A stretch of DNA of 46,160 nucleotides from positions 1-46,160 of IMG/VR virus record IMGVR_UViG_3300027511_000001. The stretch is one strand, 5' to 3'. The position numbers and the translations under genes are program-made. This stretch comes from a virus. The notes under the pieces are model-generated. The model had not been told where the DNA came from and did not search any database. It worked only from the letters and a program-made list of their open reading frames with translations. Numbering within the stretch: the first letter of the stretch is position 1; each line of letters starts with the position of its first letter. Below are positions 1 to 40,933 of this stretch, piece after piece.

Positions 1-33
<33 letters not shown>

Positions 34-80
34 CTAACAACAAACCTCCCACCCTAACTTTATGTGGTAGAAATGACACA

Positions 81-109
81 TTGACAAGGGGGACGGGGGG
101 TCGTATATT
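81..109 (+). promoter_or_regulatory. Sigma70-like promoter for the left arm
   Basis: A consensus -35 TTGACA (81-86) is followed by a 17-nt spacer and a -10 TATATT (104-109). The spacer is G-rich. It points into the left arm, about 130 nt before the first predicted gene at 240. The same hexamer pair and spacing occurs in the opposite orientation at 44272-44300, upstream of the right arm. Confidence 0.6.
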
Positions 110-110
110 G

Positions 111-224
111 GGAGAGGGAGAGGGGTCTAGCTAAGTCCTTGGGTCTTAAGTCCTTAGGTGCCGTCAAGGTCATAGATATCTAATAGAGACCACTTAGAAT
201 CGTAATAGAAACCTCAAAGAAACC
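111..224. repeat. Left arm of degenerate inverted terminal repeat
   Basis: Three blocks here recur in inverted orientation and colinear order near the right end: 111-136 matches 46070-46093 (about 22 of 26 with one 2-nt gap), 180-189 matches 46006-46015 exactly (10 nt), and 214-224 matches 45982-45992 exactly (11 nt). The sequence between blocks is diverged. Apart from the promoter at 81-109, I see no gene in 31-239. Confidence 0.5.
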
Positions 225-239
225 GAAAGTTTAAACAAA

Positions 240-362
240 ATGGCACATAAAATCAATCTTCTAAAAAAGCACGAGAATCACGACATGAAAGGCCCGACCG
301 GGCTTTTGCTTGGTATGAGTTTTGGCCTAGTAATTTGGGTTTGGATTTTGATACTTTTTTAA
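240..362 (+). CDS. 40-residue single-helix membrane protein
   Basis: The first plausible gene of the left arm encodes a short basic N-terminus (residues 1-17, several Lys and His) followed by one hydrophobic, Trp-containing helix reaching the C-terminus. The expected topology is N-in with a single transmembrane segment. An internal ATG at 285 would leave little more than the helix. The codons for GPTG form a GC-rich hairpin followed by TTTT, so the start of the gene could also act as a weak terminator. There is no clear Shine-Dalgarno sequence. I do not recognise the family. Confidence 0.4.
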   Translation: MAHKINLLKKHENHDMKGPTGLLLGMSFGLVIWVWILILF

Positions 363-381
363 ATTAGTTTAAATTAGTTTA

Positions 382-441
382 ATGCTAAATAATGAAGATG
401 ATTGGAAAGAGAAATTAAAAACGATTCAAGAAACAAAATAA
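382..441 (+). CDS. 19-residue leader peptide candidate
   Basis: A short open frame rich in Asp, Glu and Lys ends with a TAA that shares its last base with the ATG at 441 (TAATG). It is preceded by a tandem repeat (aaattagttt twice, 361-380). The overlap suggests translational coupling to the zinc-ribbon gene and supports 441 as that gene's start. No function is recognised. Confidence 0.25.
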   Translation: MLNNEDDWKEKLKTIQETK

Positions 442-935
442 TGAATCAACATTCTTTTGCCGTTCTGCCAGACGATTTCCCAATCGTAGATTCTGCAATC
501 GTCTTAGCTTTGAAAAATCGTAAGCGTATTGAAGCAGAGCGTTTGGTTTTTGAAGCTGAAAATGCAAAGATAGTCGAAATCAATTCTCTTACACAGGAAG
601 ATTTGATTCGTAATCAAGCAAATAATAAGCTTTATGCATCAAAGTTAATTAATCAAATTGTAGTCTGTCACCAAAAACATATTGACAATACTTCAATTTA
701 TAATTGCATTGAATGCAAACAAAATTTCATTGCAATTAAAAATGTTGGATTGATCCTTTCCGAATTGCCAGAATCCGAGCGATATTTTATCTGTAAGAAT
801 TGCTTCGATATCGCGTATGAAAAGTTTAAAGATGATACCGAAATTAAACCCACTGATTTGACAGGATGGGCCTTAGAAGCTTTTGGCCCGCGCCGATGCC
901 TCACGACCGGCCGATTAATTCTGCAAGATATTTAA
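441..935 (+). CDS. Zinc-ribbon protein of unknown function
   Basis: The product has 164 residues. The first half is Glu/Lys/Ala-rich and probably helical. The second half carries two CxxC knuckles (CIEC and CKNC) about 30 residues apart, consistent with one structural zinc site. The frame is open upstream to a TTG at 402, but ATG 441 is preferred because it overlaps the stop of a short upstream frame. It is the first sizeable gene of the left arm, a usual place for early host-takeover or regulatory proteins; that role is inferred from position only. Confidence 0.7.
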   Translation: MNQHSFAVLPDDFPIVDSAIVLALKNRKRIEAERLVFEAENAKIVEINSLTQEDLIRNQANNKLYASKLINQIVVCHQKHIDNTSIYNCIECKQNFIAIKNVGLILSELPESERYFICKNCFDIAYEKFKDDTEIKPTDLTGWALEAFGPRRCLTTGRLILQDI

Positions 936-948
936 TTTTATTTTTTGG

Positions 949-1010
949 TATCTACCTAAGCATTGGATTTCTTTACTAATTCTTAATTCCATGTAAGTCT
1001 TAGGTAGATA
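949..1010. repeat. 12-bp perfect inverted repeat with 38-nt loop
   Basis: The arm TATCTACCTAAG (949-960) is exactly complementary to CTTAGGTAGATA (999-1010). It lies just after the stop codon at 935. It could end the first transcript, protect an RNA 3' end, or be a protein-binding dyad. No T-run follows, so a classical intrinsic terminator is less likely. Confidence 0.5.
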
Positions 1011-1119
1011 TCTAAAAATGAAATTCGTTGATAGAAAGTGACTGACTCACCGGGTGATACGGTAGAAACTTTAAATGACGAATTACCCATCGCGGCGTAG
1101 CGTAAATTAACAAGATGTA

Positions 1120-1158
1120 CCGGGCCGGCTGAAGGTTTAGCAGACCGGCCCGGCTTTT
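1120..1158 (+). terminator. Terminator-like hairpin before the next gene
   Basis: CCGGGCCGG (1120-1128) pairs perfectly with CCGGCCCGG (1145-1153), with an extra CTG/CAG pairing inside, and is followed by CTTTTAA. It stands only 16 nt before the ATG at 1174, which has an AAGGA ribosome site. This is where an attenuator would sit. The preceding non-coding stretch 1011-1119 also contains a small hairpin (tcacc-g-ggtga near 1048). Confidence 0.6.
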
Positions 1159-1173
1159 AAAGGACAAGATAAA

Positions 1174-1329
1174 ATGTGCAAATACTGTTTAGACGACACG
1201 ATGGACATTAACCTAGAAAACATTGACGCAATCAATGAAGACAACGAAAAAGCAAAAGAGTATCTTGACCAATTGATCCTATCAGACGACCATTCATCCG
1301 ATGTTAACCCCGGAAATAATCAATCTTAG
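1174..1329 (+). CDS. Small acidic protein with N-terminal CxxC
   Basis: The product has 51 residues, starting MCKYC and otherwise acidic and Asn-rich. The ribosome site AAAGGA lies about 9 nt upstream of the ATG. Its 3' end overlaps the next gene by 29 nt in another frame. A single CxxC could be half of a zinc site formed with a partner or a dimer. Function is not recognised. Confidence 0.5.
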   Translation: MCKYCLDDTMDINLENIDAINEDNEKAKEYLDQLILSDDHSSDVNPGNNQS

Positions 1330-1942
1330 CGATCAGGCGATAGGCCACGATACACGATTAATATATCCGCATCAAAGTTATTTAACATGCCCATGCAATC
1401 ACGCACAATGGTTAAGAGAAAGATTTAAGAAATTGGAAAACGAAAAAGAATTAGGGCCGGCCCAGAAATTTCCTGAAATTCAGGAGATTATAGAGTTTGC
1501 CAAACCAAAGTTAAATGGTATTCTGAAGATGGATGAGGAAACAAAGAAAGAACGACGTATCAAACTCTTTCATGATCGTACATTCTTTGCTCGCGATTTG
1601 GTCACAATCAAAGAAGATGGGACAAAAAACTTCGACGATTTGATTGAGCATATCAAATTTCTTGAAGAATGCATTAAAGACCTGAAAACTGCGCATCAAG
1701 CGGCCGATTTGGCTAAGCTTCAATTTATTCAGGAAGCCACAGTCGCTGAACGTGAGAGAATCAAGGCGACTGATAAACAGTATAAGCCTGAATTTAAGGA
1801 GCGTGAGACAGCTAATAAAGAAAAGCTTACGATTCAGGAAAAGAAGATTCGAGACTTTGTAAAGCTTGGTCTTTCGCGTCAAGCGGCTGAGCAAATTATT
1901 TTTGGAAAAGACTTGAAGCAAAATCTAAAGAAAGAAAATTAA
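1301..1942 (+). CDS. Charged, mostly helical protein of unknown function
   Basis: The product has 213 residues, with a short CPC motif near residue 30. From about residue 40 onward it is strongly charged (Lys/Glu heptad-like, probable coiled coil). The C-terminal segment around residues 185-205 resembles a helix-turn-helix tail (RDFVKLGLSRQAAEQII). It overlaps the preceding small gene and is followed immediately by a zinc-ribbon micro-gene and the helicase gene, so it probably belongs to the replication operon. No family was recognised. Confidence 0.65.
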   Translation: MLTPEIINLSDQAIGHDTRLIYPHQSYLTCPCNHAQWLRERFKKLENEKELGPAQKFPEIQEIIEFAKPKLNGILKMDEETKKERRIKLFHDRTFFARDLVTIKEDGTKNFDDLIEHIKFLEECIKDLKTAHQAADLAKLQFIQEATVAERERIKATDKQYKPEFKERETANKEKLTIQEKKIRDFVKLGLSRQAAEQIIFGKDLKQNLKKEN

Positions 1943-1943
1943 A

Positions 1944-2066
1944 ATGTGCCACGGTTGTAACAAGCTAACATCTACGATTCGATACTACATTGATAACGAT
2001 GGCAATTTCTGGAGTCTTTGTCGAGTTTGCTTGCTAAGGTTTCTTGCGACTTATCTATCAAATTAG
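1944..2066 (+). CDS. 40-residue zinc-ribbon protein
   Basis: The sequence holds two CxxC pairs (CHGC at residues 2-5 and CRVC at 26-29), enough for one treble-clef or ribbon zinc site. It begins 2 nt after the previous stop and ends 10 nt before the helicase ATG. It belongs to the recurring set of tiny zinc proteins in this arm. Function unknown. Confidence 0.5.
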   Translation: MCHGCNKLTSTIRYYIDNDGNFWSLCRVCLLRFLATYLSN

Positions 2067-2075
2067 AAAATTTAA

Positions 2076-3668
2076 ATGCTCTCAAATATTCAAGATAAAA
2101 CAAAGTCTACGATCATTCGCAAAGCCTGTCCGTATTGTGGCAAGCTTGCGCATGAGAATTCTTTTTCTATTTCCGGTACAAAGAAAAAGGTAAAGCTAGA
2201 CTGCGGACATACAATTGTAACTTATCTTGAAGATACTTTTAAGAAATGGTCATGTGAAAGTTTAATGGGAAAGAGACCATTTCCCTATCAGTACAAGACT
2301 TTAGATTTCATAATCAACAGTAATTTCAGAACAGGAATCTTTCATCAACAGCGTGTTGGAAAAACAGTTTGCGCGTTGATGGCCGTAAAACGTTTTCCAG
2401 AAAAACTCATGCCATTTGCAGTGGTTTGTAAAGGTAGCCTACGCGCACAATGGTTCAAAGAGATTTTAGATTGGACCGGCCAGCCGGCACAAATCATTGT
2501 AAATGGGAATGATAAGCCATTCCCTGGAATTTTCAAGGCATTCATCCTATCCTATGACTTACTCCGCAACAAAGATTTATTTAAAGATTTGAATTTACAA
2601 TTGGTGATTTTAGATGAATGCCAACAAATCAAAAATTCACAAACAAAACGGACGCAAGCACTTAGACTTGCAGTTAGGGATATCCCCTATGTAATGGCAT
2701 TGAGTGGCACGCCAATTAAAAATCATGCGGGGGAGTATTTTCCCATCCTTAATATACTTAGGCCTGATCGTTTTGCATCCGAAACGCAATTTGAGCGTGA
2801 TTTCCTAGATTCCTATTTCACTGGCTATTCCTATAAAGTAGGTGGAATTAATCGGCACCAAACGGATAGATTCAAGGAATTAACACAAGACTTTACTATT
2901 CGATACATGCGCGATGATGTTCTACCAGATTTGCCTAAAACGTTTCGATCTAATTTCTTCGTTGAGTTAGGTCAAGAAGTCGAGCAAGCTTATAAGAAAG
3001 CCTATATCGAATTCCAAGAAGAATACCAGTCTGGAAATAATGAATTCGGGGATACGAGTAATCTTCTAGCAAAACTTAATCGTTTGCGTCATATCACCGG
3101 CCTGGCCAAAGTTTTACCCGTTACAGAATATGTTGAAGAATTCCTAGAAGACAACGATAGAAAAATCGTTTTATTCGTTCACCATCAAAACGTTGGCCTA
3201 GGACTTTATAACAACATACTTAACGTTACAAAGAAGCTAGGATTACACGCACCATTAATGTTAACATCGGCCAATGCCGGCTCGGACGAAGGTATTAGAA
3301 TCGACGAAGCATTTAAAACCGATCCTAATAAGCGCATTATGATCGCATCGACACTCTCCGCAGGAGAGGGTAAGAATTGGCAAATGTGCTCGGACCTAAT
3401 AATGGTAGAATTGCAATGGAATCCGGCCAATGAAGAACAAGCCGAAGATAGATTTCCTGGCATTGGTACGACGGCGAATAAAATTAATGCTACGTATGCA
3501 ATTGCTTTAGGAACGCCCGATGAATTTCTCACGGAGATTAAAGAGCGCAAGCGTGAGATTTGTAGAAAAACGATGGGCAACGAGGCCGTCCAATGGAATC
3601 AGACTAGCGTAATTAAAGAGATGGCTGAATTGCTCTTTGCTAAGGGTGGCAAAAAATGGGGATTGTAA
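2076..3668 (+). CDS. SNF2-type (superfamily 2) DNA helicase
   Basis: This 530-residue protein is an ATP-driven DNA translocase/helicase of the SNF2 branch, common in phage replication and recombination modules. An N-terminal zinc ribbon (CPYC near residues 18-21, then a Cys and a His) precedes the ATPase core. Visible core motifs are QRVGKT (motif I, about residues 92-97), DECQ (motif II, about 179-182) and LSGTPIKN (motif III, about 209-216). A second RecA-like domain ends with a motif VI-like AEDRFPGIG. Motif VI normally has QAxxRxxRxGQ, so the EDRFPGIG form is a variant. The start is the first ATG, closely behind a zinc-ribbon gene. Confidence 0.9.
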   Translation: MLSNIQDKTKSTIIRKACPYCGKLAHENSFSISGTKKKVKLDCGHTIVTYLEDTFKKWSCESLMGKRPFPYQYKTLDFIINSNFRTGIFHQQRVGKTVCALMAVKRFPEKLMPFAVVCKGSLRAQWFKEILDWTGQPAQIIVNGNDKPFPGIFKAFILSYDLLRNKDLFKDLNLQLVILDECQQIKNSQTKRTQALRLAVRDIPYVMALSGTPIKNHAGEYFPILNILRPDRFASETQFERDFLDSYFTGYSYKVGGINRHQTDRFKELTQDFTIRYMRDDVLPDLPKTFRSNFFVELGQEVEQAYKKAYIEFQEEYQSGNNEFGDTSNLLAKLNRLRHITGLAKVLPVTEYVEEFLEDNDRKIVLFVHHQNVGLGLYNNILNVTKKLGLHAPLMLTSANAGSDEGIRIDEAFKTDPNKRIMIASTLSAGEGKNWQMCSDLIMVELQWNPANEEQAEDRFPGIGTTANKINATYAIALGTPDEFLTEIKERKREICRKTMGNEAVQWNQTSVIKEMAELLFAKGGKKWGL

Positions 3669-3736
3669 TTTTTGCTTTTTTACTTGGACTTGCCGTAGGT
3701 TATCTCGATAGTTATCTTGATAAAATGAGCAAATAA
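3656..3736 (+). CDS. 26-residue single-helix membrane peptide
   Basis: The ATG lies inside the last codons of the helicase gene in a different frame, and the stop is 1 nt before the next ATG. The peptide is a hydrophobic helix followed by a short charged tail (DSYLDKMSK). It is one of several such peptides in this operon that are coupled to the previous stop. Confidence 0.4.
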   Translation: MGIVIFAFLLGLAVGYLDSYLDKMSK

Positions 3737-3737
3737 A

Positions 3738-3998
3738 ATGATTATTGAAATTCTATCCGAAGCAAGAATACCAAAAGAAACAAAAGATTCAATCAACTTG
3801 TATGCAACAAAGCGAATTCATCCTGGTGGTTTTCTAATGGCCGTCTTTGAGAATAATCTAATTTCAGCAGTCGCTAGAGGCGACAATGAAAATTTGCTCG
3901 CATTGCCAGCAATCGTAATTTACATTACTTGCCATGTTCCTACTATGTGCTACGGTAGCGTTACCAAAGTAGAAAGATGGCTAAATAATGTTATCTAA
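3738..3998 (+). CDS. Conserved small phage-type protein of unknown function
   Basis: This is an 86-residue protein with the segment RIHPGGFLMAVFENNLISAVARGD near its middle and a Trp/Asn C-terminus. The overall pattern (Pro-Gly-Gly-Phe followed by a helix and an alternating hydrophobic strand) resembles small hypothetical proteins often found in phage replication modules, but I cannot name the function. It starts 1 nt after the preceding membrane peptide and overlaps the next one. Confidence 0.65.
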   Translation: MIIEILSEARIPKETKDSINLYATKRIHPGGFLMAVFENNLISAVARGDNENLLALPAIVIYITCHVPTMCYGSVTKVERWLNNVI

Positions 3999-4080
3999 AT
4001 ACAAAGACGATCTGATTGATGGGGCCATTCTATTCTTTCTATTCTTTATTTTAGGATACGTAATTAAGAACGGTATTTAA
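3988..4080 (+). CDS. 30-residue single-helix membrane peptide
   Basis: It starts 11 nt inside the end of the preceding gene. It has a charged N-terminus (MLSKYKDDLID), then a Phe/Leu/Ile-rich helix, then KNGI. The predicted topology is one transmembrane segment. Function unknown. Confidence 0.4.
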   Translation: MLSKYKDDLIDGAILFFLFFILGYVIKNGI

Positions 4081-4084
4081 GCAA

Positions 4085-4246
4085 GTGGAATTAGTAAAGC
4101 TTTGCGATCAATGCGGCCGACACTTTCCATACAATTCTGAACTATTGGATATGTGTGATTGGTGCGGGGAGGATGTTTGCATTTACTGTGAGCCGCATCA
4201 TGATTGCATCGAAATTAAATATATTAAAAAAGAAAACAAGAAATGA
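4085..4246 (+). CDS. 53-residue Cys/His-rich zinc protein
   Basis: It reads from a GTG at 4085 and ends with a TGA overlapping the next ATG (ATGA at 4243). It contains CDQC, CDWC, C-x2-YC and a HHDC segment, enough ligands for two zinc ions in a FYVE- or RING-like cross-brace arrangement. The coupling and the dense Cys pattern argue that it is real. Function unknown. Confidence 0.5.
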   Translation: MELVKLCDQCGRHFPYNSELLDMCDWCGEDVCIYCEPHHDCIEIKYIKKENKK

Positions 4247-4677
4247 AAAAGTTTAGTCTCGCACTCTTCCTAATAAATTTAGGCTGTAGCCCGCCGACCG
4301 GCCCGACCAATCCCGAATATATTCCATTGCCGTCTATGAAAGTCAAGCCGGTCGATGCAAATTTGCAGGCAATTGCAGAGCATTGGTGGCCGATTCAAGC
4401 TGCATGCGTTGGTGTTGAGTTTAAAGTTATTGGATCTTCCTATCCTATCAATGTATATGAAGAGGCAATTGATTGCTCCGGCATTAAGGCCGCAGGATGC
4501 ATGCAATACACTTCTATCTCTGTGGTACGTCGTTGGTTTGAAGCTGCGCTTTCGCACGAATTTATCCATTTCGCATTGTGGAAAAAGGGTGGTGAGGAAC
4601 TAGGACATAGCAATCCATATTTTGCAAAGTGTGATACGTTGAATTATCGCGCGTCGCATCAAATTGACGTTGAATAA
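4243..4677 (+). CDS. Lipoprotein-like protein with HExxH metalloprotease motif
   Basis: The product has 144 residues. The N-terminus is a lipoprotein-type signal with a hydrophobic stretch ending INLGC (Cys15); position -3 is Asn, slightly off consensus. A zinc-protease motif HEFIH lies at residues 105-109, followed by LGHSNPYF with His122 as a possible third ligand. Four further Cys residues could form disulfides in the periplasm. If exported, it would be tethered to a membrane of the infected cell. It is followed by another lipoprotein gene, so the two may work together at the cell surface. The catalytic reading rests on the motif alone. Confidence 0.65.
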   Translation: MKKFSLALFLINLGCSPPTGPTNPEYIPLPSMKVKPVDANLQAIAEHWWPIQAACVGVEFKVIGSSYPINVYEEAIDCSGIKAAGCMQYTSISVVRRWFEAALSHEFIHFALWKKGGEELGHSNPYFAKCDTLNYRASHQIDVE

Positions 4678-4693
4678 CAAAGAGCTAACCAGT

Positions 4694-4710
4694 TCGGACA
4701 TGGTGTCCGA
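4694..4710 (+). promoter_or_regulatory. Small hairpin between two lipoprotein genes
   Basis: TCGGACA (4694-4700) and TGTCCGA (4704-4710) are perfectly complementary around a 3-nt loop. No T-run follows. It lies 20 nt before the ATG at 4731 and may influence translation or mRNA stability. Confidence 0.4.
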
Positions 4711-4730
4711 TCATAAGAAAGAAAATAAAA

Positions 4731-5885
4731 ATGAAGAGGGTGTTCGTTCTTGGCGGTCTGCTTTTCGTGATTGGTTGTAATAGCAAGGGTAGTGGATCTA
4801 TTACTGGTGCAACTCCAGTCGAGATTCCAAAGATTGAGACTTCGGCTTCGGCTTCTACGTCCTATTCCATTTCAGCATACAATTGGAAACTAAAGCAGCA
4901 CATTACTGCAACGATTGGCGCCGATGGCCAGTCGGTTAATGGAACGGTTTTCAATCCTACTGGTGAAAAGATTGGGCCGTTTTTCATTCTCGTGTTCAAC
5001 TCGAATCAGGAGCCACAGCATCTGTTGGGCTATGGCGGGCCATTCTTTGTTGACTCGAATCAAACCAAGACTTTCAATGTTAAGTTTGAAGGTTGCGGTT
5101 ATTGGTTGCAGGTTGATTTTTATCTGTCTGATTCAATCTCACCTGAAATGACAAATAATCAGCTTCATGGCAATAACATGCTGGACTCTGAGGGTTTGTC
5201 GTCTCCCGGTTGCTCGACCGAAACTCGTAAGGATGTTTGCGAAAATCTTCGTGGCCTGCAAACTGTTGTGCCGCAGGGATATCATGCAGACGGTACCTAT
5301 TGCTATCAGGATGAAGAGCCTACCGACGTTTGCCCTAACATCGAAGGCTTGCAGCTTGTCTTGCCTGAAGGTTTGATTTTCGACGAAATTGGAAATTGCG
5401 TTACTCCTCCCGTTGATTTCTGTCCCAATATTGTTGGCAATCAAGAAGTGGTCCCTGAGGGATTGATTCTCGATGAATCTGGTAATTGCGTTGAGCCACC
5501 TTTCGATGCTTGCCCTAATCTTGAAGGAAATCAGCCGATTGTCCCACCCGGGCTAGTTGTTGACGAGGCTGGAAATTGTCTGCCGCCGGGCCCGCCGTCG
5601 GACTCCTGCCCCAATATTCCTGGACTTCAAGCTTCGGTGCCTGAAGGGCTTGTAATTGATGAATTCGGAAATTGCGTTGCAGCTGAGCCCGATACTTGTT
5701 TTTATAACATTACGGGTAACCCAGCATTTAAGGCTACCAAGTGTAATGCATTGTCTGGTCTTGGAGCAAATTGGAATGGTACGGAAAATCATTGCGAGAT
5801 TCCTTTCCCTGGAGTTGCGATTGATGGTTTCAATCTGACGCCGGGCCAATCTGATACGGGTTGTTTGCGTAAGCAGGATCAGTAA
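4731..5885 (+). CDS. Lipoprotein with five Cys-rich CPN repeats
   Basis: The 384-residue product has a clear lipoprotein signal (FVIGC, Cys16), a Ser/Thr linker, a beta-rich domain (about 45-160), then five repeats of 30-32 residues. The repeats begin at Cys170, 201, 231, 261 and 293 and follow the plan C-P-N-[IL]-x-G-x-Q-x3-P-x-G-[LY]-x-D-x-x-G-N-C. Each repeat has a Cys near both ends, suggesting one disulfide or small metal site per unit. A further Cys-containing domain ends the protein. I recall similar CPN-type repeats in surface proteins of uncultured bacteria, so display at the cell surface is plausible. Role in infection is unknown; adhesion or blocking of competing phages are possibilities. 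Codons are more GC-rich than in its neighbours. Confidence 0.75.
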   Translation: MKRVFVLGGLLFVIGCNSKGSGSITGATPVEIPKIETSASASTSYSISAYNWKLKQHITATIGADGQSVNGTVFNPTGEKIGPFFILVFNSNQEPQHLLGYGGPFFVDSNQTKTFNVKFEGCGYWLQVDFYLSDSISPEMTNNQLHGNNMLDSEGLSSPGCSTETRKDVCENLRGLQTVVPQGYHADGTYCYQDEEPTDVCPNIEGLQLVLPEGLIFDEIGNCVTPPVDFCPNIVGNQEVVPEGLILDESGNCVEPPFDACPNLEGNQPIVPPGLVVDEAGNCLPPGPPSDSCPNIPGLQASVPEGLVIDEFGNCVAAEPDTCFYNITGNPAFKATKCNALSGLGANWNGTENHCEIPFPGVAIDGFNLTPGQSDTGCLRKQDQ

Positions 5886-5901
5886 TTTCTTAAGGTGATG
5901 G

Positions 5902-5921
5902 AATGGGGCTTCGGCCCCATT
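5902..5921 (+). terminator. Hairpin with UUCG loop after the repeat lipoprotein gene
   Basis: AATGGGGC (5902-5909) and GCCCCATT (5914-5921) form an 8-bp stem closed by the very stable TTCG tetraloop, 16 nt after the stop. The T-run is short, so it may act as a partial terminator or mRNA 3' stabiliser. Confidence 0.65.
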
Positions 5922-5930
5922 TAAACCACG

Positions 5931-5950
5931 GTCTGGTCCAAAGTCCAGAC
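5931..5950 (+). promoter_or_regulatory. Stem-loop just upstream of a ribosome site
   Basis: GTCTGG (5931-5936) pairs with CCAGAC (5945-5950), with an 8-nt loop. The AGGAG ribosome site of the next gene follows immediately (5951-5955). The position suggests control of translation of the small membrane gene at 5962. Confidence 0.35.
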
Positions 5951-5961
5951 AGGAGAATTTT

Positions 5962-6036
5962 ATGAAAGAGACACGAGTAGTTTTTGCATTACTTTTTTGT
6001 TTGGCTTGGGCATTTGTCATTGCTCTATTTGTTTAA
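5962..6036 (+). CDS. 24-residue single-helix membrane peptide
   Basis: ATG with a good AGGAG ribosome site (5951-5955). It encodes MKETR followed by an uninterrupted hydrophobic helix. Because the gene stands free of overlap and has its own strong ribosome site, it is among the better supported of the membrane micro-genes. Confidence 0.5.
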   Translation: MKETRVVFALLFCLAWAFVIALFV

Positions 6037-6045
6037 TTAAATCAA

Positions 6046-6231
6046 ATGAAACCAGATAAGATTGCAACTCTCAAACGTTTAATGGGCGATGCATCGGATA
6101 TGAAAAATCATTTTGATTTGATTATCTACGATCATTCACTCACTGAAGAGACAGTAGATTTTTATCTTCGGAAGATCGTACACAAATGCGATTATATCTC
6201 AAATGAATTGGAGAAAGAATTTAAAAAGTGA
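6046..6231 (+). CDS. 61-residue helical protein
   Basis: A charged, predicted all-helical protein with no recognised domain. Its stop overlaps the GTG start of the nuclease gene (GTGA at 6228), so the two are probably translationally coupled. Confidence 0.6.
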   Translation: MKPDKIATLKRLMGDASDMKNHFDLIIYDHSLTEETVDFYLRKIVHKCDYISNELEKEFKK

Positions 6232-7061
6232 TCCTAACAATTAGCCCGTCGGGGCTTAATACAGCGCAAGAATGCCCAACGAAATATAATTTTTCGTCCA
6301 TTCGACGTCTGTCCCAAATTGGTGCGAAGCGTGATAAGATGGATCAAGGATCTCTCTTTCATGAAATGCTTGAAATGCATTACAATCTCATAATTTCTCA
6401 GAAAGAGAATCCAGAGCTAGCTCTCAATGAAATTATCATGGCAGTTACCGAGTTGGCCCGTGAGAAGAATCGTAATGATGAATACGACCATGAAATCGTT
6501 GAGGCATGTATTCGTAATTATCAAGAGTATGCTGTATATTATGCAGACGATGGGTGGTCTCCCCTTAAGGTTGAGACTCCATTTACCAAAGAGATATTTA
6601 AGAACGATCAGCATACAATAGTAATGGAAGGCATCATAGATTTAATTACGGAGAATCTAAACAGTAAAGCTTTTCCCGTAGATCACAAAACAGAATCCAA
6701 GATTTCATACCCTACGATTTTATCCAACCAATTCACCTGCTATGCATGGGCAACTGAGTCAGACACGATCGTTAAAAATAGAATCGGATTTCAAACAAGT
6801 AAAGGGCCGGGCGATAGGTTCCACCGCGATGTTTTGTCCTATACAAAAGAGCATATTGAAGAATGGCGTGAGTCTGTAATCTATCATTCAATGGAATTAA
6901 TTCGATTCATCGAAAAAGATTATTTTCCCATGCGCGAAGTGAATTGCTGGAATTGCTGGTTCAAGAAAATTTGTGAAGCAACGCCTGACGCCAGAGAATA
7001 TACAATCATACGTGATTTTACAGTGCGTGCTCCACATAATATCTATGATAAGCGTACATAA
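6228..7061 (+). CDS. Cas4/RecB-like PD-(D/E)XK nuclease
   Basis: The 277-residue protein starts at GTG. It has the layout of Cas4/AddB-type exonucleases. An early Cys (QECP, Cys16) and a C-terminal cluster CWNC-x5-C (about 239-249) together could bind an iron-sulfur cluster. The nuclease core shows GSLFHEMLE (RecB-like helix), GIIDL (Asp about 136) and FPVDHKT (D-x-K, about 150-155), followed by a QFTCYAWA helix. Such enzymes resect DNA ends in phage recombination. The Sak4-like ATPase about 1.3 kb downstream supports a joint recombination role. Confidence 0.85.
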   Translation: MILTISPSGLNTAQECPTKYNFSSIRRLSQIGAKRDKMDQGSLFHEMLEMHYNLIISQKENPELALNEIIMAVTELAREKNRNDEYDHEIVEACIRNYQEYAVYYADDGWSPLKVETPFTKEIFKNDQHTIVMEGIIDLITENLNSKAFPVDHKTESKISYPTILSNQFTCYAWATESDTIVKNRIGFQTSKGPGDRFHRDVLSYTKEHIEEWRESVIYHSMELIRFIEKDYFPMREVNCWNCWFKKICEATPDAREYTIIRDFTVRAPHNIYDKRT

Positions 7062-7063
7062 TA

Positions 7064-7339
7064 ATGGCACACGAAATTCATAAATATAAGAGAGTAGATA
7101 TCGGTAGGGATAAAGATAATCCCTATTATGTCTACCGATGTTTGCTACCTAACTGCAATCATTACATCCCTGAGAAGTTAATCCTAGGGCGTACTTCAAT
7201 TTGTTGGTCTTGTTTAAATGAATTTGTAATTACAGTTCCTAAAAAGTTAAAGCCAATTTGTGTGTCTTGCAAAAATAAAAAGTTTGGTAAAGATGGAGAG
7301 ACAGAGCGGATACTACGCTCAATTGGGATAATTAAATAA
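7064..7339 (+). CDS. Small zinc-ribbon protein
   Basis: The product has 91 residues with three Cys pairs: C-x4-C (CLLPNC), CWSC and CVSC. It is basic overall. It starts 2 nt after the nuclease stop. This may be a nucleic-acid-binding accessory protein, inferred only from charge and zinc ligands. Confidence 0.6.
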   Translation: MAHEIHKYKRVDIGRDKDNPYYVYRCLLPNCNHYIPEKLILGRTSICWSCLNEFVITVPKKLKPICVSCKNKKFGKDGETERILRSIGIIK

Positions 7340-7594
7340 ATGATTAAAGATGAAACGTCGTTGACGTTTGAGTCAAAAATTGATCGTTTAGGCATTTGTG
7401 CCAATTGCGATTCTACTAGATTGATAACCAAGCTTTGGCAATGTGCAACATGTGGTAGTAATTCAATAATGATAATTGATGGAAGACATGCAAAAGATAT
7501 GCGAACTATGCGAAATTCGCTACTTGAAAGAAGACCAGTTCGTTTGCTCAGATTGTTACCCGAGATTCAAAAAAGTAATGCTAAAGTTCGCTAA
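7340..7594 (+). CDS. Small zinc-ribbon protein, overlapped by another frame
   Basis: The product has 84 residues with CANC and CATC knuckles (residues about 20-38) and an Arg-rich C-terminus. It starts directly after the previous stop. The last 107 nt are overlapped in another frame by a second zinc-knuckle frame (7488-7622), so only the first 50 residues look constrained by this frame alone. Confidence 0.55.
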   Translation: MIKDETSLTFESKIDRLGICANCDSTRLITKLWQCATCGSNSIMIIDGRHAKDMRTMRNSLLERRPVRLLRLLPEIQKSNAKVR

Positions 7595-7622
7595 GAAATT
7601 TTGGGAAAGGAAACTAGAATGA
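7488..7622 (+). CDS. 44-residue zinc-knuckle protein nested in the preceding gene
   Basis: MQKICELCEIRYL followed by CSDC gives two CxxC pairs 12 residues apart, then a basic helix. Its TGA overlaps the ATG at 7619 (ATGA), the coupling pattern used throughout this operon. The overlap with the gene at 7340 is unusually long at 107 nt. Either the two are true overlapping genes or one of them is mis-called. Confidence 0.45.
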   Translation: MQKICELCEIRYLKEDQFVCSDCYPRFKKVMLKFAKKFWERKLE

Positions 7623-7999
7623 TTCCTGGTACTATTTCAAATAATTCTGATGATCTTTGTAGTTGTATTCGAGTTAAGTATTTAGATTTAGTTACTGAAT
7701 TAGATAAGCTAAAAATCCAAGTTACATTGTTAGAAACACTGCGAGACTTTGATAGACAACGTTATTACGTTAGTATCGGGTCCTCAAAGACTTACAACTC
7801 TAAGCATTTACCTCAACCACCATTTGGTAAAAGTTTGGCGTTTGATTTGGCAGTAACAGAGTATATGACTCTAAAGAATTGGAATCCAAAAGGCCCACTT
7901 TGGGAAAAGATTAGAGAAGTCTCCCGATCGTTAGGTCTAATTTGCAATATTCCGTGGGACAAGCCGCATCATCAGCTTAATGAATGTGAATGCAAGTGA
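7619..7999 (+). CDS. Hypothetical protein, 126 residues
   Basis: The start chosen is ATG 7619, with AAAGGA at about 7606-7611 as ribosome site and an ATGA overlap with the preceding frame. A TTG six codons upstream is less likely. It contains CSCIRVKYLDLVTELDKLKIQ, a probable short coiled coil, and a C-terminus ending CECK. No family recognised. Confidence 0.6.
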   Translation: MIPGTISNNSDDLCSCIRVKYLDLVTELDKLKIQVTLLETLRDFDRQRYYVSIGSSKTYNSKHLPQPPFGKSLAFDLAVTEYMTLKNWNPKGPLWEKIREVSRSLGLICNIPWDKPHHQLNECECK

Positions 8000-8061
8000 T
8001 TATATTTTTAGTTGCATCAGTCGGTTTCTTTTTATTTATCTCTATTTATAAGAGAAGATAA
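7996..8061 (+). CDS. 21-residue membrane peptide (GTG start)
   Basis: GTGA overlap with the preceding stop (7996-7999) and TAATG overlap with the following start (8059-8063). It encodes one hydrophobic helix ending YKRR. The double overlap is suggestive, but the length makes it uncertain. Confidence 0.35.
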   Translation: MIIFLVASVGFFLFISIYKRR

Positions 8062-8252
8062 TGGATAACGGCCCGAAGAAAAGCTATAATGGTTTCTCTC
8101 AATTGCGACGTTATGATAAAACAGGTGAAGTTTTAAAAGGTAGAATCCTAGAATCAATCAATGAATTACGTGATGTAGATCGAGATGGCTGGAAACCTTA
8201 TTTGAATTATAATCATGGAGAGAATAAGTTTAGACCGAGAGGCAATCAGTGA
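8061..8252 (+). CDS. 63-residue polar protein of unknown function
   Basis: A polar, Asn/Arg-rich protein (NGFSQLRRYDKTGEVLKGR near the start). The ATG overlaps the preceding TAA. No domain recognised. Confidence 0.55.
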   Translation: MDNGPKKSYNGFSQLRRYDKTGEVLKGRILESINELRDVDRDGWKPYLNYNHGENKFRPRGNQ

Positions 8253-8380
8253 ATGAAGCACTTGGGTCTCCTTATTTTTATATTGGTTTTTGGAGCCTAA
8301 TTAATTCACGACTTGATAATATTACAATCTTATTAGCCCGTGTCGAAAAGGAATTGAAGATAAATAATGCCAAGCATTAA
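8249..8380 (+). CDS. 43-residue hypothetical protein (GTG start)
   Basis: The frame starts at a GTG overlapping the preceding TGA (GTGA) and ends 14 nt inside the Sak4-like gene. It has an aromatic N-terminal half (PYFYIGFWS) and a helical C-terminal half (LDNITILLARVEKELK). A competing 15-residue frame from ATG 8253 is less convincing. Confidence 0.4.
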   Translation: MNEALGSPYFYIGFWSLINSRLDNITILLARVEKELKINNAKH

Positions 8381-9137
8381 AGACATTAAGATTGGTGGTA
8401 AGCAATTTAACTTATTTATTGGCCCGCCGGGGTCTGGAAAAAGTATTGCAGCCGCGAGCTATCCCTCTCCAATCTTTTTCTTTGACTTAGATAAACGTAT
8501 TGATGCAGTAGCACCGATGTTTCCAGGCCGGGCCGACATTGAGTATGAGAGTTATGGACCAGATGATTATGAAAGACTCTGGAATAAAATCACACAAATT
8601 CGGGCAGGAAATTCGCCATTCAAAACTTACGTGTTAGATTCTCTAACTTCTTTAGCAAGAATGGCAATTAACTATTCAATCTCAATGCGTTCCGGAAAGG
8701 GTCTCTCCAAAGGCGTCATCCAAATGACACAGGTTGATGACTTCAATGGTGAATCGCGCGTACTCTCAGTAATGATGGATGCATTTCGTGGAACTAACTT
8801 TAAATCAAACTTCATCCTGACTGCACACCTTGTAGAGACGAGTAGTAAAAAGCTAAACGAGGATGATGTAATCCAGCAAAGATTGCTCACCGGAGGCAAG
8901 ACTATTGCGGCCGAGATCCCAGGTTATTTCAACGAAATTTATCTATTCTCCCGGCGAACGGGATTTGATTCTAAACCCAAATACTTTATGTCAACAGTAG
9001 ATAAAGGCGCTGGAATTAATACAAAGACAATTTTGCCGTTACCTAGCGAATTAGAATTTACTATGAAGCCGGGCGAGCCGGGCCTATTTCAAAAAATCCA
9101 GGCAGCTTGTAAGCTTCTAGGAGTTGACGTAGGATGA
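8367..9137 (+). CDS. Sak4-like RecA-fold ATPase (phage recombinase)
   Basis: The product has 256 residues. Walker A is GPPGSGKS at residues 19-26, followed by a Walker B-like strand ending TYVLDSLTS (about 89-97). A strand ending in ILTAHLVE fits the sensor region. This is the arrangement of AAA_24/Sak4 proteins, which promote single-strand annealing in phage recombination with a cognate single-strand-binding protein. The nearby Cas4-like nuclease and the DUF669-like gene fit that pathway. The start is the ATG at 8367, 14 nt inside the preceding small frame. Confidence 0.85.
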   Translation: MPSIKDIKIGGKQFNLFIGPPGSGKSIAAASYPSPIFFFDLDKRIDAVAPMFPGRADIEYESYGPDDYERLWNKITQIRAGNSPFKTYVLDSLTSLARMAINYSISMRSGKGLSKGVIQMTQVDDFNGESRVLSVMMDAFRGTNFKSNFILTAHLVETSSKKLNEDDVIQQRLLTGGKTIAAEIPGYFNEIYLFSRRTGFDSKPKYFMSTVDKGAGINTKTILPLPSELEFTMKPGEPGLFQKIQAACKLLGVDVG

Positions 9138-9304
9138 TCTATTATTTTCTAGTGGGATTCCTTATTGGCTTTGTCTTGGGTTCGGCCAATGCAATTATAT
9201 CTTTACTTAAAGGAGATATTAAAATTGAATTCGTTAGAAGTGATCGGACTACTTCTCTTGCTTATAGCCGGCCGAATAATTTGGATAGTTTTAAACAGGA
9301 CTAA
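9134..9304 (+). CDS. 56-residue membrane-anchored protein
   Basis: ATGA overlap with the preceding stop. The N-terminal 25 residues form a Gly-containing transmembrane helix (FLVGFLIGFVLGSANAI). A polar tail follows, starting LLKGDIKIEFV. No function recognised. Confidence 0.5.
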   Translation: MIYYFLVGFLIGFVLGSANAIISLLKGDIKIEFVRSDRTTSLAYSRPNNLDSFKQD

Positions 9305-9350
9305 AAGAGATGACGTGTCCAAACTGCAAGAAAGAGACAGAAATTTATAA
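9225..9350 (+). CDS. 41-residue membrane peptide (TTG start)
   Basis: A TTG at 9225 is preceded by AAAGGAG (9208-9214). It encodes one Leu/Ile-rich helix followed by a charged tail (RTKRDDVSKLQERDR). It overlaps the previous gene by 80 nt and the next by 41 nt in other frames, so it is only tentatively called. Confidence 0.3.
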   Translation: MNSLEVIGLLLLLIAGRIIWIVLNRTKRDDVSKLQERDRNL

Positions 9351-9522
9351 TACTCGTAAGCAAGATACAGTAGTTTGGCGCCGTCGTCGATGTCTTATAT
9401 GCAAGTTTCGATTTAGTACGCATGAAAGGATGGTGAAATTAAAACCAGGCCGGCCTGAAGTAGATGACATTACATTAGATCAATTACTTGATAAGGTAAT
9501 TGAAGCATACGAACGAAGATAA
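9310..9522 (+). CDS. NrdR-like zinc-ribbon protein without ATP-cone
   Basis: The product has 70 residues, starting MTCPNCKKET, then VVWRRRRCLICKFRFSTHER, which closely follows the N-terminal zinc ribbon of NrdR (CPxC, RRRR-x-C, RF-[ST]-T-x-E). NrdR represses ribonucleotide reductase genes in bacteria through this ribbon plus an ATP-cone. Here the ATP-cone is missing and only a short helical tail follows. It may bind NrdR boxes or mimic the host protein; this is inference. The ATG at 9310 is the natural start. Confidence 0.7.
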   Translation: MTCPNCKKETEIYNTRKQDTVVWRRRRCLICKFRFSTHERMVKLKPGRPEVDDITLDQLLDKVIEAYERR

Positions 9523-9539
9523 GAAAGAAAGAGAAATAA

Positions 9540-9935
9540 ATGGCTCTATTTGATTTTACCGCTGAAGATGTTGCTCGTGGTACAGTTCTTCAACCGGGTT
9601 GGTATCCGATTGAAGTCAAGAAGGTTGAAGATGGTATTGCTAAGTCTACGGGTAAGCCGAAGGTTACGATTTCCTTCGTCTGTCTCGAAGGCACCGCATC
9701 GGATGGAAGTCTAGTACAAAACGTTCCGCTAGCTTCTACGTTTTCGCCTGAGTATCCTTCATTTATCATTAACTTCGCAAAGGCTTGCGGCGCTGAGATT
9801 CCGAAGCAAGGTCTCAAGGGCCTGCGAATTGATGATGAGACATTGAAGGGTAAGAAGCTGTCTGGTTACGTAAAGAACCAAGAGTATGAGGGTCGTACTG
9901 TAAACAACCTTGCGGATTATCGCCCGCTAGAGTAG
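9540..9935 (+). CDS. DUF669-like protein, probable ssDNA-binding
   Basis: The product has 131 residues, starting MALFDFTAEDVARG, with an all-beta pattern (LQPGWYPIEVKKVEDGIA, KVTISFVCLEG, KLSGYVKNQEYEGRTVNNLADYRPLE). This resembles DUF669/single-strand-binding-like proteins that accompany Sak4-type recombinases in phages. It is the last gene before a strong terminator. Codon use is slightly more GC-rich than the flanking small genes, as might be expected of an abundant protein. The single-strand-binding role comes from family context, not from residues I can point to. Confidence 0.7.
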   Translation: MALFDFTAEDVARGTVLQPGWYPIEVKKVEDGIAKSTGKPKVTISFVCLEGTASDGSLVQNVPLASTFSPEYPSFIINFAKACGAEIPKQGLKGLRIDDETLKGKKLSGYVKNQEYEGRTVNNLADYRPLE

Positions 9936-9949
9936 TTCAAAATAAATTC

Positions 9950-9981
9950 GGTGGGGGGTGTAAAAGCCCCCCACCTTTTTT
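9950..9981 (+). terminator. Strong intrinsic terminator
   Basis: GGTGGGGGG and CCCCCCACC form a 9-bp GC-rich stem with an 8-nt loop, followed directly by six T residues. It lies 14 nt after the DUF669-like gene and divides the left arm into two parts. Confidence 0.9.
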
Positions 9982-9998
9982 GAGATTGAATATAATAT

Positions 9999-10400
9999 AT
10001 GGCTATGCAAATTTATATTTGTGGTCATGATATGCTTGAACATGTAAGTGAATATGGGTATGGAGTCTGTCATTGTATAAATGATTTTTGCCCATATATT
10101 AAATTCAATCCCAAAAATGTGACCGTGGCGGAACAGGCAGACGCAGCAGACTTAAAATCTGCCGAGGATAAACCTCGTGAGAGTTCGATTCTCTCCGGTC
10201 ACACCACTTATAAACCTGGAAAAGTTATAGAACCGTTTCCAACATATCGAGAAGAAAGAATAAAAATTCTTGAGCAACAGGAAGGTGTCATGGAAGATTA
10301 TCTACAAATGAAAGTAGATAATAAAGATTGGCATGGCGTGCAAGATGCGGCTTCTGATTTGCGAGATATTGAATCAGAATTGAAAGGTTTAAAATCGTGA
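9999..10400 (+). CDS. Open frame running through the tRNA gene
   Basis: The 133-residue frame has two unlike parts. Residues 1-40 are a small Cys/His protein (ICGHDM, VCHC, CPYIKF). Residues from about 70 to the end are a charged helical module (IKILEQQEGVMEDYLQMKV ... LRDIESELKGLKS) resembling small phage helical proteins. The segment between them (about residues 41-68) is the tRNA-Leu read as protein. The two parts may be separate genes that happen to be linked in frame by the tRNA, or a true fusion whose mRNA is destroyed when the tRNA is processed. There is no good ribosome site before 9999. Confidence 0.45.
   Translation: MAMQIYICGHDMLEHVSEYGYGVCHCINDFCPYIKFNPKNVTVAEQADAADLKSAEDKPRESSILSGHTTYKPGKVIEPFPTYREERIKILEQQEGVMEDYLQMKVDNKDWHGVQDAASDLRDIESELKGLKS
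10119..10206 (+). tRNA. tRNA-Leu (anticodon UAA) with encoded CCA
   Basis: The acceptor stem GTGACCG (10119-10125) pairs perfectly with CGGTCAC (10196-10202), followed by A and an encoded CCA (10203-10206). The anticodon stem GCAGA/TCTGC encloses loop CTTAAAA, giving anticodon TAA (10153-10155). The T-arm GAGAG-TTCGATT-CTCTC is intact. The long variable arm (GAGGATAAACCTC) is as expected for a class II leucine tRNA. UUA is a common codon in this AT-rich genome, so the tRNA probably supports translation of phage genes. Confidence 0.93.
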
Positions 10401-10549
10401 ATCAAAAAGATGCAGTCGATCTAGCAAATAGAATCGTCGAAAATGTAGCAAAAAAATGGTATTACGCTGGATCACCAATGGTCCATAGGCCCGACATAAT
10501 CATTTCGTTACGAGCTATAGTTTTGGAAACTTTATTGAAGGAAAAATGA
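10397..10549 (+). CDS. 50-residue helical protein (GTG start)
   Basis: The frame starts at GTG overlapping the preceding TGA (GTGA) and ends overlapping the next ATG (ATGA). It encodes a helical protein beginning MNQKDAVDLANRIVENVAKKW. No family recognised. The two-sided coupling supports the call. Confidence 0.5.
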   Translation: MNQKDAVDLANRIVENVAKKWYYAGSPMVHRPDIIISLRAIVLETLLKEK

Positions 10550-10827
10550 TCTGCCAATTTTGTGGCAAAGAAAGCCGAGAGACATGGCAAGAAATAACTC
10601 AAAGGCTCGGCCGGTTTCACGAGTCAAAGCAAAAAGCGTTAGGCATAGCAAAGCCGGGCCGAAAGAAAAACGGGTGGTCACTTTACGATTCCGCAAGGGA
10701 ATTAAAGGTAAGCCCAACATTAATGGGAACAATTTGGATATTGTATCGCGCGGCAAAAGAAAGCCCGGCAATATTCCGAATAGAGAGAATGGCATCAGCG
10801 ATAAGCCACGTGAGACGTACGAAATAA
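10546..10827 (+). CDS. Zinc-knuckle plus helix-turn-helix protein
   Basis: The 93-residue product begins MICQFCGKES (one CxxC). Residues about 45-85 resemble a helix-turn-helix: SLYDSARELKVSPTLMGTI, then LYRAAKESPAIFRIERM. This makes it a candidate DNA-binding regulator, one of very few in this window. The DUF1599-like frame overlaps its last 94 or more nt, and if the longer start is used, most of the gene. Confidence 0.5.
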   Translation: MICQFCGKESRETWQEITQRLGRFHESKQKALGIAKPGRKKNGWSLYDSARELKVSPTLMGTIWILYRAAKESPAIFRIERMASAISHVRRTK

Positions 10828-11138
10828 AACCAATTCCAACAAAGTTTAGCCTACTTTTAGAGCAAATGGCTAAGATTCATGCTAGTAAAAGCGCAGACTA
10901 TTCAAAGGCGGCCGATCCTTATTCTAACTTTAAGTATGCAGCACAAGTTGCAGATGTACCAATCTATAAAGTGTATCTCGTATTGCTTGGAGTCAAATTC
11001 GCTAGAATCTTACAACTTCTAGAGAGTGGTCAGACACCCAACAATGAAAGCATTAACGATACATTTCTTGATTCAGCTACTTACGCGGCTATCATGTCTT
11101 CTCATTTGATGGAGGATTCAGTTGGCGCAAAAGTTTAA
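10734..11138 (+). CDS. DUF1599-like small protein
   Basis: The conserved part runs from about 10842: FSLLLEQMAKIHASKSADYSKAAD, then PYSNFKYAA, with a helical tail. This resembles DUF1599-type proteins of phages (a nucleotide-modification-associated family) with the pattern H-x2-K-x2-DYS...DP-x-x-NF. The start is unclear. The frame is open from 10560, but 10560-10827 is also the coding frame of the helix-turn-helix gene. The ATG at 10866 would cut into the conserved helix. TTG 10734 is used here as a compromise. A -1 frameshift from the preceding gene is another possibility. The stop is certain. Confidence 0.6.
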   Translation: MDIVSRGKRKPGNIPNRENGISDKPRETYEIKPIPTKFSLLLEQMAKIHASKSADYSKAADPYSNFKYAAQVADVPIYKVYLVLLGVKFARILQLLESGQTPNNESINDTFLDSATYAAIMSSHLMEDSVGAKV

Positions 11139-11313
11139 GACATACGTGTTGCCGATTCTACTAGGAATTTTAGGAGTATTCCTATCTCTATTTGCTTTAC
11201 ACACTTATCAAGATCACCAAGTATTTCATGCGATAGTAAATATCGAAGCGCAAAGGCAAGGAAAGATTCCAAATCCACAGCCTGCGCCCAAACCAGAGGA
11301 GCCAGCCAAATGA
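11122..11313 (+). CDS. 63-residue membrane protein with Pro-rich tail
   Basis: The TTG at 11122 has a strong GGAGG ribosome site (11111-11115). Residues 7-28 form a transmembrane helix (YVLPILLGILGVFLSLFAL). The C-terminus is Pro-rich (NPQPAPKPEEPAK). It overlaps the end of the preceding gene by 17 nt. A small membrane protein with a Pro-rich periplasmic tail could belong to lysis functions, but nothing else supports that. Confidence 0.5.
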   Translation: MAQKFKTYVLPILLGILGVFLSLFALHTYQDHQVFHAIVNIEAQRQGKIPNPQPAPKPEEPAK

Positions 11314-11741
11314 ATAAATGGCAAGCCGACATGGTTAAATTTCACGAGAAATTTGGTTTAGAATCTATCCATGTACCCCAATTACCAACAATAGCAACCA
11401 GATTATTGCGTATCTCTCTAATTGAAGAGGAAGTTAGAGAGACAGTTGATGGAATTCATAGAGATAATCTAGTTGATATTGCAGATGGTATCGTCGATTC
11501 AATTTACGTTCTTATTGGTACAGCAGTATCATATGGTATAGATTTGAATCCTCTATGGAAAGAAGTACACAGAACAAATATGTTGAAGGATAACGGGCCG
11601 GTCCGGGGCGATGGAAAGGTATTAAAACCTGAGGGTTGGCAGCCACCACGAATTAAAGAGTTATTAATTAAACAAGGCGCAGATGCGGATCAATTTAAAC
11701 CTATTGCGGAAGACGGCGATGAGAAGCCAGAGACAGCATAG
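11310..11741 (+). CDS. MazG-like nucleoside triphosphate pyrophosphohydrolase
   Basis: The product has 143 residues of the all-alpha NTP-PPase superfamily (MazG/HisE/dUTPase-like), which split NTPs into NMP and pyrophosphate. Metal-binding acidic motifs are visible: EEEVRE (about residues 38-43) and DIADGIVDSIYV (about 56-67), then GIDLNPLWKEVHRTNMLK, the usual end of the fold. Such phage enzymes clean or tune the nucleotide pool. It is next to a deaminase-like gene, consistent with a nucleotide-metabolism pair. The start ATG overlaps the preceding stop. Confidence 0.8.
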   Translation: MNKWQADMVKFHEKFGLESIHVPQLPTIATRLLRISLIEEEVRETVDGIHRDNLVDIADGIVDSIYVLIGTAVSYGIDLNPLWKEVHRTNMLKDNGPVRGDGKVLKPEGWQPPRIKELLIKQGADADQFKPIAEDGDEKPETA

Positions 11742-12012
11742 GCACGCTTCGATTGTTTTTAGACGTGGCAATCCCATTGCTGGTGGGTATAATGATGGAG
11801 AAGAGCACGCCGAAGCAAATGCTATTCATGGCGTAGATAGAGTTACAACACGGCCAAAGAATTTGGTAATGGTCAACATCAGATTAACAAAAGCAGGCAA
11901 AATTGGTTTGGCAAAGCCATGTCCTGCATGTCTCGATCTACTTAAAGAAAAGAAATTCAGAAAAGTAATTTACTCTACAAATGCTGGAACCTTTGAGGAG
12001 ATTTATCTGTGA
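11719..12012 (+). CDS. Cytidine/dCMP deaminase-like protein
   Basis: The 97-residue product from ATG 11719 contains HAEANAI (HAE zinc/catalytic motif) and PCPAC (PCxxC zinc ligands), the signature of the cytidine-deaminase fold. It is shorter than typical dCMP deaminases (about 130-180 residues) and may lack some peripheral helices. The frame is open upstream to 11683, but 11719 follows a GGAAG ribosome site with a smaller overlap (23 nt) with the MazG-like gene. The likely substrate is a free cytosine nucleotide or nucleoside; the sequence does not decide which. Confidence 0.7.
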   Translation: MRSQRQHRHASIVFRRGNPIAGGYNDGEEHAEANAIHGVDRVTTRPKNLVMVNIRLTKAGKIGLAKPCPACLDLLKEKKFRKVIYSTNAGTFEEIYL

Positions 12013-12173
12013 AGAAATTGAATTGCACAGTCAAAGATTGCAAGAGAATTTTTTGGACACGTCGGCCGGGCCCGTGCCGAAAGCATAAACCTAAGATCCC
12101 TCTAGCAATCACGATTGAATTTAAACCAAAAGTCTACGGTTCAATGTCTGCACCTACCAAGAAAATAAAATGA
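12009..12173 (+). CDS. 54-residue basic Cys-containing protein (GTG start)
   Basis: GTGA overlap with the deaminase stop and ATGA overlap with the next gene. It contains C-x4-C (CTVKDC) and PCRKH, enough for one zinc site, and is otherwise Lys-rich. Function unknown. Confidence 0.45.
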   Translation: MKKLNCTVKDCKRIFWTRRPGPCRKHKPKIPLAITIEFKPKVYGSMSAPTKKIK

Positions 12174-12307
12174 AAATTTTTGAAAGACTTGTTGTATTTA
12201 TCTCTGGAATAGCTTTACTAGTATATGGCGATGGTAATGGATATAGCATTCTAGGATTCGTATTAGTAATAGCGAGTGTATTGATGATTTGGCAGAGTCA
12301 AGACTAA
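12170..12307 (+). CDS. 45-residue two-helix membrane protein
   Basis: Two short hydrophobic helices (VVFISGIALLVYG and ILGFVLVIASVLMIW) are separated by DGNGYS. Its ATG overlaps the preceding TGA, and its TAA overlaps the polymerase ATG (TAATG at 12305-12309). Function unknown. Confidence 0.45.
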   Translation: MKIFERLVVFISGIALLVYGDGNGYSILGFVLVIASVLMIWQSQD

Positions 12308-14775: not shown

Positions 14776-14971
14776 ACCTAAGTCGCGTAAATCAGATGGC
14801 ATTCTCTCTGCCATTATTGCTGCACATTACGATTCCGATCTTAAAGGTATGACATTTAGTTTTTTATTTGTACCAAATACTGCTGAACCTGCTGAAGTAG
14901 TTACATCTTTGCTACAATACCTTCAATCTATGGCACAACGTAAGGTCAAAGAAGAGGCAAAGAACAATTGA
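14765..14971 (+). CDS. 68-residue hypothetical protein (TTG start)
   Basis: The frame reads from TTG 14765, 11 nt inside the polymerase end. It has an alternating beta-alpha pattern (GMTFSFLFVPNT, then EVVTSLLQYLQSMAQRKVKEEAK). A competing 26-residue hydrophobic frame starts at ATG 14772. The longer frame looks more like a folded protein. Function unknown. Confidence 0.5.
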   Translation: MENEPKSRKSDGILSAIIAAHYDSDLKGMTFSFLFVPNTAEPAEVVTSLLQYLQSMAQRKVKEEAKNN

Positions 14972-22301: not shown

Positions 22302-22302
22302 C

Positions 22303-40840: not shown

Positions 40841-40933
40841 TTGTCCTTCTATGTTTTCTTACAAAAAATGACTTTAATAAAGGCAGAACGATTATCAAAA
40901 GAAGTGCCAGTAAATGTTTGTGCTGCAACTGTA

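Follow-up and report, generated by a model that had tools for sequence, protein, structure and literature searches.

Organization of the locus

The DNA stretch analyzed in this study (the window) comprises a 46,160-bp virus record. Its replication arm lies on the plus strand (about 1-16,400) and encodes a helicase, an exonuclease, a Sak4-like annealing protein, SSB, a polymerase, and a primase, and the structural arm lies on the minus strand (16,416-44,245). Since the capsid protein has no match among 50,697 phage records, the virus belongs to a lineage without a representative among isolates; known phages have only remote matches to its terminase and polymerase. A search for the host via the capsid protein gave no match in 240 Patescibacteria genomes and, in 235 Myxococcota genomes, a single match that was weak and partial.

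The two adjacent open reading frames reported in the replication arm by the first-pass annotation, P0001 (4243-4677, plus strand, 144 aa) and P0002 (4731-5885, plus strand, 384 aa), are confirmed. The ATG of P0001 overlaps the stop codon of the preceding gene (ATGA), and a gap of 53 bp containing an RNA hairpin (4694-4710, plus strand, z -2.0) separates it from P0002. A strong UUCG hairpin just 3' of P0002 (5901-5922, plus strand; z -3.3 for the whole stretch 5886-5962) is a possible transcript end or processing site, followed by a short U tract only. Small ORFs, each with one hydrophobic segment, surround the two genes at 3656-3736 (26 aa), 3988-4080 (30 aa), and 5962-6036 (24 aa, plus strand, AGGAG upstream), and possibly form an island of small membrane proteins.

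Both products had been described as lipoproteins. Export is supported for both, as the N-terminus of P0001 is signal-like and that of P0002 is of the signal type; the lipoprotein assignment is well founded for only one of them. P0002 has a canonical lipobox (VIGC, Cys16) matching the PROSITE-type pattern, which is also matched by a third protein of the window (40424-40840), and its lipidation is well supported. The lipobox of P0001 (NLGC, Cys15) fails this pattern, having Asn at position -3, and P0001 is a possible lipoprotein with a relaxed lipobox. Mature P0001 and P0002 contain 4 and 16 further cysteines, respectively, and these even numbers fit the expectation for exported disulfide proteins.

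The CPN modules of P0002

P0002 consists of an N-terminal domain, five CPN modules, and a Cys-rich C-terminal domain. As noticed originally, the modules have a cysteine at each end and recur with a period of 30-32 residues. Four copies are canonical, at 5331-5399 (residues 201-223), 5421-5489 (231-253), 5511-5579 (261-283), and 5607-5675 (293-315), and the first, at 5238-5303 (residues 170-191), is degenerate; all are on the plus strand. When the module was written as a degenerate DNA pattern, the window gave four matches and 100 shuffled versions gave none, which places the repeats beyond chance. Between copies 2-5, protein identity is 58-75% but identity at third codon positions only 29-54%; the repeats are accordingly of old origin and maintained by selection at the protein level.

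The structure prediction proposed for the repeat gave confident modules. AlphaFold2, applied to five modules with 22 natural relatives, produced well-formed beads of short β hairpins (pLDDT 94.1) whose relative orientation is uncertain (pTM 0.50). Because the cysteines are invariant, a disulfide within each bead is likely. Comparison of the fold with PDB gave no match better than E 0.08 (regions of LRP2). Matches to adenovirus fibre shafts in a viral fold library (E about 1e-3) had an rmsd over 10 Å and were discarded as shape noise.

No family for the repeat was found in Pfam, NCBIfam, PHROGs, or PADLOC, and neither whole P0002 nor whole P0001 had a homologue in any collection searched. The N-terminal domain of P0002 has no match in 259 Patescibacteria genomes, nor has its CPN stretch in a tblastn search of phages and plasmids. 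A WD40 match of whole P0002 among PDB sequences was attributed to chance.

Distribution of the CPN module

An iterated profile collected 117 copies of the module in about 45 proteins, with the consensus CPNIPGVQATVPDGYILDESGNCV. The motif spans 24 residues from Cys to Cys, CPN[IL]xGxQxx[VI]PxG...D..GNC, and is found as tandem copies in proteins that are secreted or anchored; its invariant residues C, N, Q, P, and C are all present in P0002. A pattern scan of one genome per species in 84,980 species detected 42 loci, 33 of them in Patescibacteria (Saccharibacteria, Nomurabacteria, and others). The remaining loci belong to Chloroflexota and Anaerolineae, one Myxococcales, one Thermoleophilia, one other bacterium, and one contig labelled Sumerlaeota, where the protein start resembles an Anaerolineales one. 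In samples drawn evenly by phylum, and apart from the anchor genome of each phylum, the module was found in 12 of 286 Patescibacteria genomes but in none of 187 Myxococcota or 199 Chloroflexota genomes.

Among the other CPN proteins, 35 have their 5' end present, and a simple hydropathy test assigned an opening signal or membrane segment to 31 of these; in two of the four exceptions the first Met had been taken inside the repeats. The family includes histidine kinases, proteins with Ig-like or carboxypeptidase-regulatory domains, and C-terminally anchored proteins. For instance, in six histidine-kinase-like proteins of Saccharibacteria (L023, L034, L037, L040, L048, and L058) four CPN modules stand in tandem in the N-terminal, outward-facing part, and these proteins form a possible conserved surface sensor; the Pfam HATPase domain, tested in L048 only, was matched there. 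P0002 differs from the cellular proteins, which are sensor kinases, adhesin-like, or anchored and mostly not lipoproteins, and its domains outside the modules match none of them. Judged from sequence, CPN is a widespread exported module, apparently without a database name, and naming it would aid envelope annotation of uncultured bacteria.

The module was also found in three other viral contigs. L015 encodes a 279-aa lipoprotein with one CPN module, located near HTH regulators beyond the lysis genes, whereas L016 and L064 encode secreted CPN proteins, the latter with an anchor-like C-terminal end. A phage lipoprotein using a widespread unnamed surface module is real and mildly interesting. The useful result is the repeat itself, which is compact, confidently modelled, and recurrent on surface proteins of Patescibacteria and also in phages.

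Conservation of the gene pair

The replication gene order of the window is the same in a syntenic phage of 45.6 kb, G004 (terminase 75% identical), and in the more distant L012-L014. G004 retains the genes flanking the P0001-P0002 slot (counterparts of 4085-4246 and 6046-6231), but neither P0001 nor P0002 is present between them; its slot of about 670 bp holds different small genes, one of them DUF5658-like (E 0.004, below the cut-off). We therefore consider the slot accessory and the pair not part of the lineage core.

The first-pass annotation suggested a search for the gene pair in other phages and named a lack of co-occurrence as evidence against its proposal. The pair was found in no syntenic phage, and the data searched contain no second genome with both genes. 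No P0001-like gene neighbors the CPN genes of L015, L016, and L064, and none of the proteins with the P0001 motif adjoins another CPN gene. A HELMHH protein near the L064 CPN gene was rejected as a case of co-occurrence, as it has neither a signal sequence nor the GH motif. That the pair is absent elsewhere in these data speaks against a conserved system of two genes; an envelope role of either gene is unaffected by it.

The exported HExxH protein P0001

The HEFIH motif of P0001 (residues 105-109; 4555-4569, plus strand), a putative zinc-binding helix, and the GH described downstream of it are both present. The latter (G121-H122; 4603-4608, plus strand) lies 11 residues after HEFIH, within GHSNPYFAKC, and provides a candidate third zinc ligand. 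The arrangement of HExxH, a downstream His, and a Phe a few residues later is that of SprT-like and minigluzincin metallopeptidases, and we take the spacing of the third His to be SprT/YgjP-like. SprT-like proteins are intracellular, whereas P0001 looks exported.

No relatives of P0001 were identified in viral contigs, either by a peptide-based scan or by two degenerate patterns for HExxH-GH. Tblastn searches of phages and plasmids, and of 282 Myxococcota genomes, gave no match, and in 259 Patescibacteria genomes there was none above chance; two hits with E 0.004 and 0.01 per genome are at chance level across so many genomes. PDB sequences, NCBIfam, and PADLOC also contained no match.

Possible function of P0001 and P0002

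We suggest, with a probability of about one in three, that P0001 and P0002 are accessory, envelope-directed genes, that P0002 displays its C-terminal domain on a beaded stalk, and that superinfection exclusion is the likeliest outcome. The two genes would form a moron-like insert in the replication arm whose products go to the infected cell's envelope. P0002, lipidated at Cys16, would have a membrane-near domain and, beyond it, five CPN beads stapled by disulfides, a stalk that would hold the Cys-rich C-terminal domain off the membrane. This domain or the stalk most likely would bind an envelope component such as the phage receptor and thereby block or alter surface traffic, with superinfection exclusion as the likeliest single result. 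P0001 would probably be a zincin-like metallopeptidase exported to the same compartment, without having to be a partner.

The envelope assignment is supported by the canonical lipobox of P0002, the signal or membrane starts of the other CPN proteins, the confident bead model, the L015 phage lipoprotein, and the flanking ORFs with single transmembrane segments; the accessory assignment is supported by the other small genes in the G004 slot. The probable effect of the two proteins is a change in the infected cell's envelope. Lipidation, disulfides, zinc binding, and a binding function are predicted, and early expression is likewise predicted from the position in the plus-strand replication arm. 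Superinfection exclusion, which the first-pass annotation had offered as an example, is plausible by analogy with T5 Llp and Ltp; by itself the idea is ordinary for phages. CPN modules on a phage lipoprotein suggest a surface contact that merits testing.

Llp of phage T5 is an early expressed, phage-encoded envelope lipoprotein with an intramolecular disulfide (PMC9586334). Like P0002, it and the Cor proteins of T1 and phi80 are phage-encoded lipoproteins, but Llp is a small periplasmic protein without repeats that jams FhuA, and no sequence relation to P0002 was found. Ltp of Streptococcus thermophilus phage TP-J34 consists of a lipid anchor, a spacer, and a repeat domain and has a moron-like distribution (PMC3952083). 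It resembles P0002 in being a phage lipoprotein with a repeat domain and differs in being expressed from a prophage in Gram-positive hosts, in having two repeats of another type, and in targeting the tape measure protein. Apart from being phage lipoproteins, Llp and Ltp have no visible feature in common with P0002.

The two genes could also be unrelated passengers, P0002 being host-type surface cargo for adhesion, mimicry, or host conversion and P0001 an independent exported protein. That the CPN modules are mainly cellular, the pair is not conserved, and the slot varies between relatives agrees with this explanation, which we consider about as probable as the envelope-directed one. It accounts less well for two genes that adjoin on the same strand within an island with other small membrane ORFs, and for their third-position GC, which matches that of the neighboring plus-arm genes and so gives no sign of recent import.

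A further possibility, compatible with either explanation of P0002 and rather doubtful in our judgment, is that HEFIH occurs by chance, P0001 being no metal enzyme. In the 13,925 aa of the window 0.23 HExxH motifs are expected by chance, and the second one observed, HEDIH, is inside the family A DNA polymerase, so HExxH alone is a weak indication. The Pfam SprT-like profile matches P0001 below the cut-off (E 0.025; 14.9 bits against 25.6), and the structure of P0001, modelled from a single sequence since no relative was found, is uninformative on the zinc site (pLDDT 30). On the other hand, the context ALSHEFIHFALW...GHSNPYF resembles a zincin helix with a third His, and the SprT-like match, which alone among the profile matches has a plausible meaning, spans residues 100-131, exactly the HEFIH...GH segment. 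From motif and context we therefore rate a zinc enzyme as somewhat probable; as neither a homologue nor a usable model was obtained, the zinc protease proposed originally is retained as a lead only.

A protease and its lipoprotein partner, with P0001 cleaving or being restrained by P0002 and the pair weakening or remodelling the envelope, for example to aid lysis, have precedents. In Listeria, a secreted HExxH protease gene of phage origin, mtz, is followed by the lipoprotein gene tim, and the two sensitise cells to phage lysis (PMC8235301). This phage-derived exported protease beside a lipoprotein is the closest precedent, with the same gene order and kind as P0001-P0002. Similarly, an extracytoplasmic protein with lipoproteins among its homologues neutralises the type VI secretion metallopeptidase VgrG2b (PMC6899460), and of the window proteins scanned none was recognised as a separate endolysin or holin. 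However, Mtz is a metzincin and Tim is TIMP-like, relations that neither P0001 nor P0002 showed. The Listeria genes travel as a pair, whereas P0001 and P0002 occur together in no second genome searched, and CPN proteins elsewhere lack a P0001-like neighbor. In addition, the genes belong to the replication arm rather than a late lysis cassette and are separated by 53 bp and a hairpin, making such a partnership improbable.

P0002 is very unlikely to be a virion protein (tail or capsid decoration), for although extended disulfide beads could form a fibre, as the non-significant fibre shaft matches would have it, the protein has a lipobox and no significant fold match, and its gene lies among replication genes outside the minus-strand structural arm. 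We give as little credence to a new two-component exclusion system, in which a surface module captured from an uncultured, possibly Patescibacteria-like host would serve a beaded lipoprotein that, with an exported metallopeptidase, reseals or disguises the cell surface.

Other features of the window

The family A DNA polymerase (12289-14775, plus strand) carries an N-terminal uracil-DNA-glycosylase-like stretch in addition to its non-zincin HEDIH. The clearest terminator of the replication arm, a strong GC hairpin followed by TTTTTT, is at 9950-9975. Third-position GC is 0.15-0.24 in several minus-strand genes (26832-29165, 40424-43003), compared with 0.34-0.43 in plus-arm genes; the capsid gene (0.42) is an exception among minus-strand genes.

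The structural arm contains two internal duplications (21528-22785 and 25525-26605, minus strand), in which adjoining genes share stretches that are 71% and 59% identical, respectively, and a gene with a PAPS reductase domain (20755-21531, minus strand) that is unmatched in the syntenic G004. Finally, a third lipoprotein (LIAC-NPPTAP, compare GC-SPPTGP in P0001) adjoins a protein resembling a small outer-membrane barrel (39849-40840, minus strand), and both are kept in the relatives L003 and L004.
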